Positions 11,009 through 19,110 of a stretch of DNA of 20,485 nt are shown here, piece by piece. A program made the position numbers and the translations under genes. Every line of letters begins with the position of its first letter. Position 1 is the stretch's first letter. Origin of the DNA: a virus. The stretch is from positions 1 through 20,485 of the IMG/VR virus record IMGVR_UViG_3300050020_000005; one strand, given 5' to 3'. Below the pieces are notes generated by a model, which was not told the DNA's origin, searched no databases, and worked only from the letters and a program-made list of their open reading frames with translations.

Positions 11009-12373
11009 TTAACCCGAAACCCGCACGCCCAGAGAGCGATACAGGGACGCAAAACCGTAGGCCACGTCAATCCGTGTCGGCTCCGCGTCGTTGTTAATCG
11101 TGTATTGCGTGGCGATCCGGAGGCTCAAGCCGAGATCCTCATCGTATGCCCGCGAGGCCTCGACGGCCGTCCGCGGGAGCGGAAGGTCAACAAAGGCCAG
11201 GGCGTAGGCGTCACGATGGAAGTACAGGTTCTCGGTCGAAGCGGTCGAGAGCGCAGCCCCGCCGTTCAGCGTCACAGCCGGAGTGCCGGTCCAGGCCGCC
11301 GTAGTGGCGACGTTCTGGAACTGGCCGCCGGTGATCGCGCACTCCGCGACTGTCACGGAAAGCGTGCCGTCCGATTTGGACGTGTAAAGCCCGGTCGTTG
11401 CGTTGAACGTGCCATTGGTCGGGGTCGCAGCAGCGAAGGCAGGGCCACCAGGCGCGGCGACGCCGACCATCTGGGCGTAACCACCGGGAGGCAGGACAAC
11501 AAACTGTTTCAGGCTGTTCCCGTAACGCCCACGATTCTGCGGGTTGACCGGGAACAGACCGGCCACCTGGATCGTGTCGCCAACCGTGCAAGCCGCTGAG
11601 CTATTGGTCAGGCCGGAGATATTGAAAACGCCGGTCTGCGCCCAGCCAGAGGTAAGAATTGCCGAACCGCCTGCGGCAGCGGTAACACCTGCCAGCACCG
11701 GGGTTCCAAGCAGGGAGCCGGTCGTGTAGTTGGCGATGTTCGGATCTTCGAACCAGTCGGCGCCGGCGGTCTTTGCCGCGACCATGCCGGTTTCGTAGAG
11801 CTTCGAAATGTCGGCCTGGGGATTGAACAGACCTTTCAGGCTGTCGGCCATGCTCGAATTGGCGAACGGGTGTAGGACCGCCGAAGGCATAACGCCCTTG
11901 GGCATACCTTCCGAAATCAGGATAGCGCGCGCATCGCTGAAGTTCTTGAAGCTGGTAGGCGGCGCGCCAGGCGTCCCGATGCGATTCGATGTGTTCTGCA
12001 TGGCGAAGTAGGCGCCGTCCGAGTCGATCCGGTTCCCGACTGCCATACACGCCGGGTTGATGAACCGTGACTCAAAGTCGTCGATGTCCAACAGCATGTT
12101 GATCGTGTTGAACTGAATGTCGACGTGGAACTGGTACAGGATCGACACCGGCACATAGTTCTCCGTGCTCGGCTCGACGTTCAGAGCCGGCCCGAAAGTC
12201 CCGAGGTAGCGCGGCGGCAGGCGCACATTGGCCGTTGCCCCGATTTTCCGGCCTTTTACGCCGAATTCCTTGTCGTATTGACGGTTGAATTTATCCGTCA
12301 GGACGCAGTGATTCGCCAATACAGGCAGAGCCCGATTGGTGATCATGCTGATGGTTAAAAGTTGGTTAGCCAA
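11009..12373 (-). CDS. Major coat protein, P22 gp5-like
   Basis: The 454-residue product begins MANQLLTISMITNRALPVLA and continues with the P22 coat family pattern: NRQYDKEFGVKGRKIGATAN, VRLPPRYL, FHVDIQFNTINMLLDIDDFE, SRFINPACMAVGNRIDSDGA. This is an HK97-type fold with the P22 extra domain; residues about 230-370 form the variable insertion region. P22 coat has 430 residues. The start codon is TTG (12373-12371) with GGAG 7 nt upstream; an in-frame TGA a few codons upstream and the absence of any ATG between force TTG or an internal M10, and the 'MAN-LL' start matches the family. The leader can fold into a three-way junction described separately. Gene order scaffold-coat agrees with P22. Confidence 0.93.
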   Translation of the reverse strand: MANQLLTISMITNRALPVLANHCVLTDKFNRQYDKEFGVKGRKIGATANVRLPPRYLGTFGPALNVEPSTENYVPVSILYQFHVDIQFNTINMLLDIDDFESRFINPACMAVGNRIDSDGAYFAMQNTSNRIGTPGAPPTSFKNFSDARAILISEGMPKGVMPSAVLHPFANSSMADSLKGLFNPQADISKLYETGMVAAKTAGADWFEDPNIANYTTGSLLGTPVLAGVTAAAGGSAILTSGWAQTGVFNISGLTNSSAACTVGDTIQVAGLFPVNPQNRGRYGNSLKQFVVLPPGGYAQMVGVAAPGGPAFAAATPTNGTFNATTGLYTSKSDGTLSVTVAECAITGGQFQNVATTAAWTGTPAVTLNGGAALSTASTENLYFHRDAYALAFVDLPLPRTAVEASRAYDEDLGLSLRIATQYTINNDAEPTRIDVAYGFASLYRSLGVRVSG

Positions 12374-12430
12374 AGCTGTTCTCCAGCGCCTTCAAGGCGC
12401 ATAACGGAAACGAAATTCCGCTAACAGCTT
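12373..12430 (-). promoter_or_regulatory. Predicted three-way-junction RNA in the coat leader
   Basis: The minus-strand transcript has perfect 8-nt outer arms, AAGCUGUU (12430-12423) and AACAGCUU (12380-12373). They enclose two hairpins: CGGAA/UUCCG with a 6-nt loop (12420-12405), and GCGCCUU/AAGGCGC (12400-12386; in practice about a 6-bp stem with a 3-nt loop). The GGAG ribosome site (12384-12381) falls in the junction, and the last U of the closing arm is the first base of the UUG start. This nested symmetry is directly visible. It is a candidate translational control element for coat synthesis; no ligand is known. Confidence 0.5.
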
Positions 12431-12439
12431 CGGTGGTGT

Positions 12440-13471
12440 TTAGTGTCGCTTCCTCATGGCGAGGTTCGCGTTGTTGCGCTTTTGCCAGTCTGAGATTGTT
12501 TCCCGGATATTCATGTCAACCGGGTCTTTCTCGACTGCTGCGCCAACTGTGCTAAGCGGCTGTATCACCGGGGCCGTGTTGCGGGCCTTGCTCGGGGTTA
12601 ATCCCGTCGTTTCGCTGGCCTTGATGGCCTCCGGTACCGCTTTGCTCGGCGTTGCGCCGTCTTTCGGTTCCTCTTTCGAGAATGGCTGAAGCGTACTCTC
12701 AATCTTTCCGATTTGCACTAGTTGCAAGGCCGGTTTGAGCTTGCTGAGTGATACCACCAGTTCAGGATGCTTCGCCAAGTGGTAGCCGAGCTCGGCGAAC
12801 ATTTCCGATTCCTGCATGTAGCCGGCGACTGCAGGCGGGATTATCTCATCCGAGCTTCCGGTCACTTCCTTGAAGTCAGGAACGAGCTTGATGGCGTCTT
12901 GAATGCGCTGCTTCGCCGTGGCTTCCATCTCAGCGAAGGAACGTTCCTGGGCCTGCTTCGCCTGCTCGGCGGCGTGCTTGGCGAGTGCCTGGTCAACCTT
13001 CCAGTCGGTCAGGGCTTCAACGTATTCGGTTTCCGTGCCGAAGTTCTGCCGGTCGGGCTTAGCGACTTCCTCCGCTTTCTCGGCTGGCTTGCCCTTGGCA
13101 GCATCCAATGCTGCCTGCAGCTGGTCGGCGCGTTGCTCGGCCAACTTCCGCTCGCTGTACTGCGCGGCCGCAAACTCCTCGGCTTCCTTCATTTCACGAT
13201 GCTTCTTGCCGATGGCCTTCAGCATCTTGGCCGACAGTTCCTTTTTCTGGTTCGCGGTCAGCCCGTCGTCGCCCTCTACATCGTCCGGGTGTTCCTCCTT
13301 GTTATCCGGCTTCGTTTCACCCGGAATAACGCCATCGCCGCTCGCAGCAGCCTCGGCTTTACCCTCCGCTTCCTTGTCTTTGCCATTGCTTTTGGGCGGC
13401 TCCGGCGCTTCCCCGAGCGCATCCGCAAGTACCGCCTCTTTGTTACCGCTATCCAGCACTACTATTGCCAT
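12440..13471 (-). CDS. Scaffolding protein (P22 gp8-like)
   Basis: Starting at the ATG 13471-13469 (AAGGAG 6 nt upstream), the product is 343 residues, beginning MAIVVLDSGNKEAVLADALG. A start 20 codons earlier is open but lies inside the upstream endonuclease gene and has no ribosome site. The protein is highly charged and almost wholly helical, with a disordered acidic N-terminal third (Lys/Glu/Gly/Ala-rich), a central coiled coil (KLAEQRADQLQAALDAAKGK, KHAAEQAKQAQERSFAEMEA), and a basic C-terminus (ISDWQKRNNANLAMRKRH). A basic C-terminal tail is how P22 gp8 contacts coat. P22 gp8 is 303 residues. Order portal-scaffold-coat gives the identity; sequence character fully agrees. Long leucine-rich plus-strand frames over this gene are shadows. 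Confidence 0.85.
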   Translation of the reverse strand: MAIVVLDSGNKEAVLADALGEAPEPPKSNGKDKEAEGKAEAAASGDGVIPGETKPDNKEEHPDDVEGDDGLTANQKKELSAKMLKAIGKKHREMKEAEEFAAAQYSERKLAEQRADQLQAALDAAKGKPAEKAEEVAKPDRQNFGTETEYVEALTDWKVDQALAKHAAEQAKQAQERSFAEMEATAKQRIQDAIKLVPDFKEVTGSSDEIIPPAVAGYMQESEMFAELGYHLAKHPELVVSLSKLKPALQLVQIGKIESTLQPFSKEEPKDGATPSKAVPEAIKASETTGLTPSKARNTAPVIQPLSTVGAAVEKDPVDMNIRETISDWQKRNNANLAMRKRH

Positions 13472-13487
13472 TTGTTGCTCCTTCCTG

Positions 13488-13979
13488 TTATTCAACTCTT
13501 GCAAATTCGCCATGCAAAGCATGACGTGCATTTTTTACAGCGACAACTGCTTGCTCGAATTCGTCGAATAGGCCAAGCCAATAGTCTTTCCACTGCAATT
13601 GGACTCTAGCTTGCCATTTGCGTTTGCCTTTATTCCACCTAACACCCTTAACGCCTGATTTGTTATCTGCTCGTATTAGCTGATTACATTGATTTTGGCT
13701 AGGATTGGCGGAACGAAGATTTTCTATCTTGTTATTTAGCTTATTACAATCCATGTGGTCTGTTGCCTCTGGCCATTGGCCATAGTGCCAAAGCCAAATA
13801 ATTCTATGAACGTAATACAGAGTTCCGTTGATCCGAACGGTGATATATCGATGGCCGCCCAGACTGCCGGCAACGGCCCCCTTCTTTGCCCGTGATCCGC
13901 GCGTCATTTTCCAAATCAATTGACCGCTGCAAGGGTCATAATCAAATAATTGGCGTACATCTGCTTGTGTAAGGCTCAT
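13488..13979 (-). CDS. HNH-AP2 homing endonuclease, free-standing
   Basis: The 163-residue protein starts MSLTQADVRQLFDYDPCSGQ. It contains an HNH_3-type nuclease (VHRIIWLWHYGQW, then TDHMDCNKLNNKIENLRS; metal or catalytic residues about H58, D74-H75, N79, N87) and a C-terminal AP2 DNA-binding domain at residues 106-162 (NKSGVKGVRWNKGKRKWQAR, then GLFDEFEQAVVAVKNARHAL). This HNH plus AP2 layout is the classic phage-borne homing endonuclease, which cuts a genome lacking the gene and spreads by repair. Its ATG overlaps the portal stop as TAATG, and it ends 16 nt before the scaffold start, leaving the scaffold ribosome site intact. The gene is visibly richer in A/T than portal and scaffold, suggesting recent arrival. 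No intron halves are evident around it. Confidence 0.9.
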   Translation of the reverse strand: MSLTQADVRQLFDYDPCSGQLIWKMTRGSRAKKGAVAGSLGGHRYITVRINGTLYYVHRIIWLWHYGQWPEATDHMDCNKLNNKIENLRSANPSQNQCNQLIRADNKSGVKGVRWNKGKRKWQARVQLQWKDYWLGLFDEFEQAVVAVKNARHALHGEFARVE

Positions 13980-16150: not shown

Positions 16151-16416
16151 GCTAGCGCCCTCTGGAAAATCCAATGCGGCTTGTCGTCAATCCATACATC
16201 CATCAGTCGGCCTAGAGCGGCCATGAACGGCCCTTTTGCCTCGCGCGATGTGTAAATAATCTCCGACACTCCGTCCATGTCGCCGATTGGCTCATCGGGA
16301 TACCGCATCGTCACGCACACCACCTTATGCCCGCGTTCCGTTGCATCACGGATAAAGTGCTGCCATAGCTCAGGATCAGCGGTAAAGGTGCCGTCATAAT
16401 CGAGCGCGATTATCAT
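16147..16416 (-). CDS. Small HAD-superfamily hydrolase-like protein
   Basis: The product (89 residues from the ATG at 16416, which overlaps the terL stop as ATGA) begins MIIALDYDGTFTADPELWQH. It shows HAD motif I (D6-Y-D8-G-T), a motif II-like Thr (VCVTMR, T36), a Lys (K61 in REAKGPF) and the motif IV acid pair in DVWIDDKPHWI (D77, D78). With no cap domain it is a minimal HAD phosphatase-like fold; related small phage proteins are common near terminase genes but I know no established role. A start 4 codons upstream (16428) is also open; neither has a clear ribosome site, so coupling from terL is likely. Activity on nucleotide or polynucleotide phosphate is possible but unproven. Confidence 0.75.
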   Translation of the reverse strand: MIIALDYDGTFTADPELWQHFIRDATERGHKVVCVTMRYPDEPIGDMDGVSEIIYTSREAKGPFMAALGRLMDVWIDDKPHWIFQRALA

Positions 16417-18686
16417 CTGCGCATCCATGCGGTATTAGGGGCGCCACCAATGCGCCGATGAACAACGCGTGGCGGAGGTGTTGAGGGCTTTTCTTCGTGC
16501 ATTACAAGTTCGGGGAATAGGTCTGAGCAAGCCCAGACCATTGCATCCGCCCGGTTCGGGCTGTTCTCGCCCATGTAGCCGTGGGTCGTGAAGCCGATCA
16601 GTTCATCCTCTAGCTCGCGGAAGATGCCTCCCATGCGGATTTTGCCAGTCTCGACCAAAGCGGATATGGGCTCAGCCCTTACCACTTTCCCGCGGCTGGC
16701 GGTCACCGGCCGGAACGGGGTGCGCGGCCTGGCGGTACGGATGACGTTTCCAACCATCGCGCCGCCATAGTTGACCTCGGCAACGATCCGGTCTGCGCCC
16801 CAGCGGTCGAATGCGTCCGTCGCAACGCGACCCCATACTTTCGGCCCAGCCTTGCAGGTCAAGTCCTCAAGCACATAGCCGTTGCCATCGATCCCAAGCC
16901 CGCAGACAACTATCCCGATCTCGTCGTTGTCGATGTTGTCCACGTCATCAGCCCCGGAGGGGTCCACGGCGACCACGATGCGCAGCATTTCGGGCAGTTC
17001 GCGGTCAATGTTGCGCCACTTCTCAAGCATTTCGTCGGTGAACAAAGCGTTCGGAGAGGCGTCCCGGAACTCGCCTTCAAGGAAGCGCTTACGAAGGCGT
17101 ACAGGCAGGGATTCGAGCGTCTTGATGTAGTCCTGGCTCAGGTTCTGGACGTTATCGCGTGGATTGACCTGCATGAAGGCGTAGCTGTTGGGATCGCCAA
17201 GCTCCTGCCGCGTCTCCGGGTCAACCTTAGTCTTGAACATCCGGTAGGTCCAATGGGCTTTGTCGGGCGGATTTTCATCATAATAGGCCTTCATCACCAG
17301 TGGCTTGCCGGTCGCCCGGTCCTGCACGCGCTGCGCAAGCCGGGTGATGGCCATGTTGCGGCTTGAGTACGGAATCTGGCTGCACTCGTTGAAGAACAGG
17401 TCTGCGAACTCCGTGCCTAGAATCTTCTCCGTGCGCTCGCGGTCGTCCAAGCCACCGAACCAAAGCTCCGAGCCGCCGGGAAAGGTGGCATATAGATCGC
17501 TCTTGTTCAGGTCGTAAGGAACGCCGGGGAAGCACTTGGACATGACGGCCGGGAACGTGTCCAGCACGACCGATTGCTTGACGTGGCCGAGGCGGAAGCG
17601 AAGAATGGCGCCGCGCGAGCCGGGAGCCTTCAGCCTGCGCTGAACCTGCTTGCGCACGATCAGGAATGTCTTGCCACTGTTATGGTGCAGGATGCCGTTC
17701 GCAAAGTATTGCTCAGTCACAGGGACATGCAAGGTGTAATAGTCCGCTTCGGGGGATTCTGATATAATAAAGACCTTCTCTAAGCTATACGCAAACTGAA
17801 AGGGGCGATCGTATGAAAGACCGGCGAACAGGCAAAATCGGTAAAGAGCGGCGTCAACTCGTTGTTGAACTAATCGCCAAAGGCGCGACGGCTGGCGAGA
17901 TTGCAGACCAGTTGAACGTGAATCCAGAGACGATCCGTAAATTTGCTCGAAAGCACGGATATAAGATTCAGCGCGAGCCGCGGTCCATGGAGTCCCACCC
18001 TTGTTGGAATGGGGGAACGGTAGTGGACCGCACGGGTTATTTGCTTCGCCGCGTAGATGCGACAGGTCCATACGGATATCTAATTCGGGCAATTCAGAAG
18101 CGCGGTTACTTAGGCTCCGACCCGAACGGATACGCTCCTGAGCACCGCATTGTGGCGCATGACATGCTTGGCCGACCGCTGCACCCAGGGGAAGTCGTTG
18201 ACCATATCGACGGAAATAAGCGGAACAACGATCCGTCAAACTTGCGAGCATTCCCGTCAAACGCCGAGCATCTGCGCGTAACGCTGAAAGGAAAGATTCC
18301 GAATTGGACGCCCGAGGGTCGTGCAAAGTTCGTCGGACGGCCAATTGATCCGAACAGCGCAAATCAGAAGCGACTCGCCAAGCGCCGCCAGTCCAAAATC
18401 GGTGATCCGGAGTAACGGTTACAGACTTTCCGGACTCCGTTACAACTTTGAGCATCTTGGCGCGGCCCTTCAGGAAGGGGGCGCAAACCATTTGGACGCC
18501 GCGCGTAGTCAATACCGCGACCGGCTTACCAATTCTCGCAAGCTCTGCAATTGTCTTGGAGTGACCGTCAATAACGGCGTCCCCGGTCAGGCACCTTGAC
18601 CCGCCGGCCAGCAGGATGTGCTTCGCTGGGCCGTTCAGTATCTCCTGGGCCTCTTGCTGCTTGGCGGTCAACGTGAAATCAGCCAT
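16413..18686 (-). CDS. terL: Terminase large subunit with intein in the Walker A motif
   Basis: The 757-residue precursor carries a 305-residue intein (C32-N336); spliced TerL would be 452 residues. Exteins rejoin as LLAGGSR+SGKTFLIV, a complete P-loop. Walker B is FADLFFNECS (residues 427-436, catalytic E434). The RNase H-like nuclease is at about 570-720: VAVDPSG (D575), AEVNYGG (E637) and NRADAMVWA (D714). These are the ATPase motor and headful or cos nuclease of DNA packaging. Start ATG at 18686 overlaps the upstream HNH gene by 8 nt. The C-terminus overlaps the HAD-like gene as ATGA. Without splicing the P-loop is split by 305 residues, so packaging should depend on splicing. Motifs in both exteins are intact. 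Confidence 0.96.
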   Translation of the reverse strand: MADFTLTAKQQEAQEILNGPAKHILLAGGSRCLTGDAVIDGHSKTIAELARIGKPVAVLTTRGVQMVCAPFLKGRAKMLKVVTESGKSVTVTPDHRFWTGGAWRVASDLRCSDQLAVRRTLHDPRASNSESFLSALRADARRLTGMLASLTDRCSAYFRRYGQRLPLGAAVGQACHAPQCGAQERIRSGRSLSNRASELPELDIRMDLSHLRGEANNPCGPLPFPHSNKGGTPWTAARAESYIRAFEQIYGSSLDSRSTGLQSRQPSRLWRLVQQRVDAALYRFCLFAGLSYDRPFQFAYSLEKVFIISESPEADYYTLHVPVTEQYFANGILHHNSGKTFLIVRKQVQRRLKAPGSRGAILRFRLGHVKQSVVLDTFPAVMSKCFPGVPYDLNKSDLYATFPGGSELWFGGLDDRERTEKILGTEFADLFFNECSQIPYSSRNMAITRLAQRVQDRATGKPLVMKAYYDENPPDKAHWTYRMFKTKVDPETRQELGDPNSYAFMQVNPRDNVQNLSQDYIKTLESLPVRLRKRFLEGEFRDASPNALFTDEMLEKWRNIDRELPEMLRIVVAVDPSGADDVDNIDNDEIGIVVCGLGIDGNGYVLEDLTCKAGPKVWGRVATDAFDRWGADRIVAEVNYGGAMVGNVIRTARPRTPFRPVTASRGKVVRAEPISALVETGKIRMGGIFRELEDELIGFTTHGYMGENSPNRADAMVWACSDLFPELVMHEEKPSTPPPRVVHRRIGGAPNTAWMRR
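17760..17805 (+). promoter_or_regulatory. Extended -10 promoter and Shine-Dalgarno of the antisense HNH gene
   Basis: The plus strand has TGATATAAT at 17760-17768, a perfect extended -10 (TGnTATAAT) with no good -35, as is usual for this class. About 30 nt further, GAAAGGGG (17798-17805) lies 7 nt before the HNH ATG at 17813. On the minus strand the same bases encode intein residues I-I-S near block F and P-F-Q-F just before it. Thus start signals for one strand are written in the coding sequence of the other. Confidence 0.6.
17813..18415 (+). CDS. HNH homing endonuclease encoded antisense within the terL intein
   Basis: The 200-residue protein starts MKDRRTGKIGKERRQLVVEL. Residues about 15-50 form a helix-turn-helix (AKGATAGEIADQLNVNPETI, then RKFARKHGY), likely for target recognition. 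The HNH_3 nuclease is at about 107-155: YAPEHRIVAHDMLGRPLHPG, EVVDHIDGNKRNNDPSNLRA, with D130-H131, N135, N143 and H153 in the usual places. The C-terminus is basic (NQKRLAKRRQSK). It is the only gene on the plus strand and lies wholly inside the intein, between its splicing halves. It has its own promoter and ribosome site. By analogy with intein and intron endonucleases it should cut intein-free terL at the P-loop codons and spread the intein. Codon second positions of each strand face wobble positions of the other. Confidence 0.92.
   Translation: MKDRRTGKIGKERRQLVVELIAKGATAGEIADQLNVNPETIRKFARKHGYKIQREPRSMESHPCWNGGTVVDRTGYLLRRVDATGPYGYLIRAIQKRGYLGSDPNGYAPEHRIVAHDMLGRPLHPGEVVDHIDGNKRNNDPSNLRAFPSNAEHLRVTLKGKIPNWTPEGRAKFVGRPIDPNSANQKRLAKRRQSKIGDPE
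18412..18443 (+). repeat. 7-bp inverted repeat at the end of the antisense HNH gene
   Basis: GTAACGG (18412-18418) and CCGTTAC (18437-18443) are perfect inverted arms around an 18-nt loop, starting at the HNH stop codon. No T-run follows, so it is a weak terminator candidate at best; GTAACGGTTAC at the left arm is also a short palindrome. On the minus strand it codes for intein residues just before and in block B. Confidence 0.25.
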
Positions 18687-19110
18687 TTGCTAGTGACTCA
18701 GAAATTTCTTTATGCTTGCGGCGCCATACGGCCATCTCCTGTCTGGCTTTCCATTTCAAAGCCTTTGCTTGGTCCTTGCCTATTTCTTGATCGAGCGGAA
18801 GATCGGCGCGCAACTTCTTTACTATCGTCCGCAGTCTCGCTACCTCGGCCTCTAATTCCGAAATCCGCGCCTCGAGCTTCTTTCGTTGTGGGCGATTAGA
18901 ACGTATCCGCACTGGCCTGTTTTTCTCATGTTCGGCCTTATGGCACCGATAGCACAGCGTCTTGCCATTGTTGGGATCAAGGCTCAATTCAGGGTAGGTA
19001 GATTTCGGCTTGATATGGTGCGCGTGCAAATCTTCCGACTTACCACATTCACCGCACTTCCCGTCCCGACTCTTTACGGAATCAGCCCATGCCTTCATCT
19101 TCGTACTCAT
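18679..19110 (-). CDS. Packaging-associated HNH nuclease with C-terminal coiled coil
   Basis: The 143-residue protein begins MSTKMKAWADSVKSRDGKCG. It has a zinc-ribbon HNH: C19-x2-C22, H31-H32 in LHAHHIKP, N47-N48, then CYRCHKAEH with C53, C56, H57 and H61. Residues about 76-110 (KLEARISELEAEVARLRTIV, KKLRADL) form a leucine-heptad coiled coil, and the rest is a Lys/Arg/Trp-rich tail. HNH proteins beside terminase genes are known to be part of some phage packaging motors and to be needed for TerL-dependent end cleavage. Lying between terS and terL and overlapping the terL start by 8 nt supports that rather than a selfish role, although a homing origin is possible. Only weak purine sequence (GAAAGAA) precedes the ATG. 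Confidence 0.85.
   Translation of the reverse strand: MSTKMKAWADSVKSRDGKCGECGKSEDLHAHHIKPKSTYPELSLDPNNGKTLCYRCHKAEHEKNRPVRIRSNRPQRKKLEARISELEAEVARLRTIVKKLRADLPLDQEIGKDQAKALKWKARQEMAVWRRKHKEISESLANG

Follow-up and report, generated by a model that had tools for sequence, protein, structure and literature searches.

Why should the major capsid gene of a tailed phage begin with TTG, within a folded leader downstream of the scaffold gene, and what does that leader do? The sequence studied, here called the window, is the whole 20,485-base virus record IMGVR_UViG_3300050020_000005. All genes considered here lie on its minus strand, so the relevant RNA is the reverse complement. Profile matches (PHROGs and Pfam-type) identify P22-type genes on that strand: portal, scaffold, coat and terminase. 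The scaffold gene (12440..13474, minus strand; phrog_8865 head scaffolding protein, PHROGs E 1.6e-29) has its likely ATG at 13474 and ends with TAA at 12442-12440 after the C-terminal residues RKRH; nearly all relatives carry RKRH or RQRH before the stop. After a gap of 66 nt comes the coat (major capsid) gene (11009..12373, minus strand), which encodes 454 aa of the P22 gp5 type (PF11651 E 2.3e-24, phrog_283 E 9.5e-57). Its TTG is the only plausible start: inspected by eye, the region from the in-frame upstream TGA to the TTG holds no ATG, GTG, TTG or CTG, and an upstream in-frame start is thereby ruled out.

The minus strand from 12442 to 12361 folds at -32.9 kcal/mol (z -4.59), and none of 200 shuffles is as stable. 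The plus-strand reading was rejected, its fold being weaker (-26.9 kcal/mol, z -2.0) and antisense to the genes. The scaffold–coat leader adopts a three-way junction made of an outer helix, a 7-bp hairpin and a 6-bp hairpin, which bears out the junction that an earlier note on this DNA had proposed at 12373-12430. The outer helix, P1, is present in both the MFE and the centroid fold; its 5' arm CCGAAGCUGUU occupies 12423..12433 and its 3' arm AACAGCUUUGG occupies 12370..12380 (both minus strand), the latter holding the start codon UUG (12373-12371). The eight-base perfect arms of the earlier note exist as a core running from A12430-T12373 to T12423-A12380, with the first base of the TTG in the last of the eight pairs, as described there. 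The helix itself is longer, since three further pairs (G12431.T12372, C12432-G12371 and C12433-G12370) bring it to 11 bp; the entire TTG codon and the next base are therefore paired. Hairpin P2 (12403..12422, minus strand; AGCGGAA-UUUCGU-UUCCGUU, arms 12422-12416 and 12409-12403) adjoins P1 on the 5' side, and hairpin P3 (12386..12400, minus strand; GCGCCU-UGA-AGGCGC, arms 12400-12395 and 12391-12386) is missing in some relatives. The ribosome site does lie within the junction: the junction strand UGGAG (12381..12385, minus strand) carries the Shine-Dalgarno sequence GGAG at 12384-12381, unpaired and 7 nt 5' of the TTG. The scaffold stop is close by, 9 nt before the 8-bp core and 6 nt before the extended helix rather than the 10 nt first given. 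In Rfam the window has no match at the gathering threshold, and positions 12250-12550 have none up to E 1.

Coat-protein searches for relatives yielded as many as 80 related viral contigs for each query, and bacterial genome bins supplied 4 contigs more. The structure survey covers 73 representatives with less than 80% leader identity, and 68 next-gene leaders in the same contigs serve as control. Coat leaders average a fold z of -1.9; 42% of them fall below -2 and 22% below -3. The next-gene leaders average +0.3, and not one falls below -2. Among the representatives the start codon is unpaired at 0.28 in coat leaders versus 0.55 in next-gene leaders, and the coat start with its Shine-Dalgarno region is less accessible than that of the next gene (p 9e-11) or of the scaffold (p 2e-10). 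The outer helix is present in 65 of the 73 and absent from the other 8; two inner hairpins accompany it in 26 leaders, one in 37 and three in 2. In many relatives the Shine-Dalgarno sequence is also held in the outer helix.

Pairing of the outer arms goes beyond what chance provides. Swapping arms between relatives gives less stable pairs than the native combinations (z -6.0). Because this test may partly reflect base composition, each 5' arm was also compared with shuffled versions of itself. The shuffling gives a mean z of -1.1, with 29% of leaders at p<0.05 (binomial p 2e-9) and a z of -3.9 for the window. RNAalifold on a MAFFT alignment recovers just five outer pairs because the arms drift too fast to be aligned by sequence; start-codon anchoring was used instead for that reason. 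The covariation set consists of 16 same-register relatives from which the two arms were cut out and anchored on the start codon and the partner of the following base. In this set 72.9% of outer-arm cells pair (58.1 ± 2.4 when shuffled), double changes fill 36 cells (17.8 ± 3.4) and the covariation score is 0.437 (0.218 ± 0.030), values that 0 of 500 shuffles reach in each case, with the caveats that the anchor was picked from folds and that, as the tool warns, related sequences can exceed such shuffles. Slid registers score 0.23 at most, and double changes occur in 9 of the 12 outer-arm pairs. Two other measures are unexceptional, with 57 of 500 shuffles reaching the number of pairs changed on both sides and 68 of 500 the number of further pair types. 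Across relatives the first base of the start codon takes part in an AU, CG, GU or UA pair; UUG starts mostly show A-U, GUG starts C-G and the AUG start U-A. The earlier note had staked its structure on arms that are conserved or covary; the arm sequences differ between relatives and their pairing is kept. Window fold, survey, arm shuffle and covariation all place the start region in RNA structure beyond chance.

The inner part of the structure bears on whether a protein might read it. The motif GCGGRAA in P2, the first hairpin, occurs in 24% of leaders versus 1% of shuffles and recurs though the outer arms drift fast, as might be expected if coat, scaffold or another phage protein bound the junction or P2 and repressed or activated coat translation. 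Scaffold synthesis in P22 is autoregulated, and the MS2 coat protein binds an operator hairpin that holds the replicase start in the phage mRNA. The present leader resembles that operator in holding a translation start within phage mRNA structure; it differs in forming a three-way junction where MS2 has one hairpin, and any protein ligand is hypothetical. Since P3 is often missing, the architecture varies between relatives and GCGGRAA could equally be kept by shared ancestry, a protein operator seems rather improbable. An element for mRNA processing or stability is far less probable still. Contiguous on their 5' side in the window, P1 and P2 would stack to about 18 continuous pairs that could invite a cut by RNase III or protect the 5' end of the coat mRNA, but such a role leaves the non-ATG starts and the position of the start codon inside the helix unexplained, and helix length and hairpin number vary between relatives.

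The start codon is as distinctive as the fold. Among the 87 contigs readable at the coat start after removal of identical leaders, the gene begins with TTG in 33, GTG in 32, ATC in 9, ATT in 5 and ATG in 8, so that 79 of 87 are non-ATG. In the same contigs the gene after coat starts with ATG in 78 of 78 cases and the scaffold in 65 of 78, the scaffold figure being approximate, as start calls for both genes were chosen among ATG, GTG and TTG by Shine-Dalgarno strength. The coat excess gives Fisher p 2e-38 against the next gene and 2e-23 against the scaffold, with relatedness ignored. The coat-protein tree shows at least 33 changes of start codon; switches between ATG and non-ATG number at least 7, and those between AUC/AUU and the rest at least 11. 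Non-ATG starts are thus not one frozen ancestral state. The lineage-wide rule that the major capsid gene starts with a codon other than ATG is real, and it was absent from the earlier note, ATC and ATT included. More distant phages have ATG coat starts in nearly all examples examined, the exception being Acetobacter phage phiAX1 with GTG. Xanthomonas phage PBR31 and the Manatee Spring phages share the gene family and the scaffold-then-coat order but have ATG coat starts, and the few leaders examined show no comparably sealed start.

Several other accounts of these starts were rejected. For AUC/AUU coats an upstream in-frame start is ruled out in 11 of 14 contigs, where the stretch from the start back to the in-frame stop lacks ATG, GTG, TTG and CTG alike. 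A scaffold–coat fusion by ribosome bypass does not fit, because scaffold stops vary (TAA, TGA, TAG) and the first coat codon in the 87 contigs is only TTG, GTG, ATG, ATC or ATT, never CTG or another Leu, Val or Ile codon. Nor is ATG avoided merely to suit pairing, since in one relative (L048) the same helix accommodates an ATG, paired with CAU. The data indicate that AUC and AUU can serve as starts of major capsid genes, and gene finders limited to ATG, GTG and TTG would truncate or misplace such genes. Six AUC/AUU leaders (L047, L060, L069, L077, L160 and L171) have a common context like TAAGGNG(C/T)AGCG(AAA/GCC)-AUC upstream of coat, a likeness in sequence that suggests a common or convergent start module.

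Noncanonical starts are known in cellular genes: infC begins with ATT in E. coli and ATC in Streptomyces, and Streptomyces sigR begins with GTC (PMC5472188). The AUC/AUU codons of infC are repressed by IF3, and the weak GTC of sigR sets its ratio to the partner RsrA (PMC5472188). A start of the infC type, that is, other than AUG, GUG or UUG, is found in 14 relatives, whose AUC/AUU codons are those of infC. The window differs from both systems in that its UUG is accepted by IF3 and its gene product is a very abundant structural protein. By analogy with sigR, a weak start may set the ratio of two interacting partners, here coat and scaffold.

The position of the 5' arm suggests a link between the leader and scaffold translation. 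In most relatives the arm lies between -15 and +10 nt, counted from the scaffold stop. Type A leaders, the window included, have an arm starting a few bases past the stop, within about 10 nt in most, and in type B leaders the arm shares sequence with the final scaffold codons, the conserved RKRH-stop among them; in both types a ribosome ending scaffold would sit on or beside it. Two type A leaders (L011 and L013) have arms starting 16-20 nt past the stop, where a terminating ribosome would probably not reach them. When the RNA is blocked to stop+12, the mean predicted cost of opening the coat start falls by 3.4 kcal/mol (11.9 to 8.5), compared with 0.5 (9.4 to 8.9) in shuffled leaders (p 6e-8). 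Blocking to +14 lowers the cost from 15.4 to 3.1 kcal/mol in L048 and from 16.4 to 7.6 kcal/mol in L016. The effect in the window is small: 14.6 kcal/mol becomes 10.5 with a block to stop+10 and 12.9 with a block to stop+14.

The likeliest reading of the leader is a gate that couples coat to scaffold: a cis-acting translational element in which coupling by RNA unfolding, together with a weak start codon, would tie coat to scaffold synthesis. We put the probability of this reading at roughly 0.55. It is based on the fold and its excess over chance, the covarying arms, the avoidance of ATG throughout the lineage, and a 5' arm located at the scaffold stop. On free mRNA the outer helix would lock away the coat start codon (plus the Shine-Dalgarno sequence in many relatives), so that 30S subunits would rarely initiate, and the weak start codon (UUG, GUG, AUC or AUU) would limit leaky initiation further and set the ratio. 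A ribosome ending scaffold would cover or melt the 5' arm and free the 3' arm; the coat start, in most cases 50-80 nt further on, would then be open to a second ribosome that need not collide with the first. In this way the making of coat would depend on that of scaffold. The leader structure is well supported in the window and its relatives. We infer that ribosomes open the helix, that coat output would depend on it and that its purpose would be to make no coat without scaffold.

Termination–reinitiation, as usually conceived, needs overlaps or very short distances (PMC10666635). The scaffold–coat gaps are too long for it, which makes unfolding the better variant. Coupling by unfolding is described for rpmI-rplT at a spacing of +52 nt and for MS2 coat-lysis, and structure right after an upstream stop can lower coupling (review PMC12548453). 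In E. coli rpmI-rplT and MS2 coat-lysis, as here, RNA structure conceals a downstream start that would become accessible through upstream translation, and the +52 nt stop–start spacing of rpmI-rplT is similar to that of the phage leaders. The MS2 lysis gene also uses a UUG start. The phage leaders differ in that the gene that would be controlled, from the scaffold gene, is the major capsid gene of a dsDNA tailed phage, that their arms covary with start-codon identity, and that their opening is predicted from sequence. No report of the leader element was found in the open-access papers searched.

Some observations weigh against the coupling gate. The switch envisaged in the earlier note, opened by a ribosome finishing scaffold, gains from the 5'-arm position and the occupancy calculation and is weakened by the small opening effect predicted for the window. 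A weak start is unexpected for coat, since more of it than of scaffold is required. Relatives with gaps of 13-21 nt, in which the outer helix is slight or missing, also keep weak starts, and weak start and helix are therefore separable traits. These helix-free relatives are also what would be expected if helix and weak start simply fixed a modest rate of coat initiation, independent of scaffold translation. AUC/AUU leaders are less paired at the start codon than UUG/GUG leaders (0.53 versus 0.20 unpaired, p 1e-4), a contrast that is marginal on independent pairs (median p 0.06), and their Shine-Dalgarno pairing is stronger (-7.1 versus -5.8 kcal/mol), as if total strength were held constant by different means. 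This fits a tuned rate as well as coupling. A fixed rate would leave aside that the 5' arm lies at the scaffold stop in most helices and that the relief predicted from occupancy is far above that of shuffled leaders, and such a brake is judged less likely than coupling, yet a serious rival.

The coupling gate may extend to a broader rule, which is offered tentatively: in this lineage the most abundant structural gene would have to avoid AUG, with coat made only by ribosomes that follow scaffold. The UUG, GUG, AUC and AUU starts would then belong together with the fast-drifting, covarying fold tied to the scaffold stop. In AUC/AUU members IF3 would act as the gate, the level or activity of the host factor controlling capsid production. 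The leader gives a concrete, testable candidate cis element for coat/scaffold balance across dozens of uncultured phages.

An HNH_3 endonuclease ORF (17813-18415, plus strand; HNH_3 E 3.8e-11, with a weak helix-turn-helix match) runs antisense inside the terminase gene (16413-18686, minus strand), wholly within its intein-coding part (Intein_splicing E 1e-9). An HNH concealed out of frame within an insertion in a phage methylase has been published (PMC11855218), in passages that make no mention of the opposite strand. Two further HNH ORFs (13488-13979 and 18679-19110, minus strand) match HNH_3 and HNH, one of them between portal and scaffold, making three HNH genes in about 6 kb. In seven relatives (L057, L059, L061, L063, L064, L065 and L075) coat homology begins abruptly near codon 28-34, as if an insertion split the gene. 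Positions 688-822 of L057 give a weak group I intron match of 20 bits, below the gathering value of 50. In L210 (1501-3016, MW202674) the coat is annotated as two pieces flanking an inserted small ORF.
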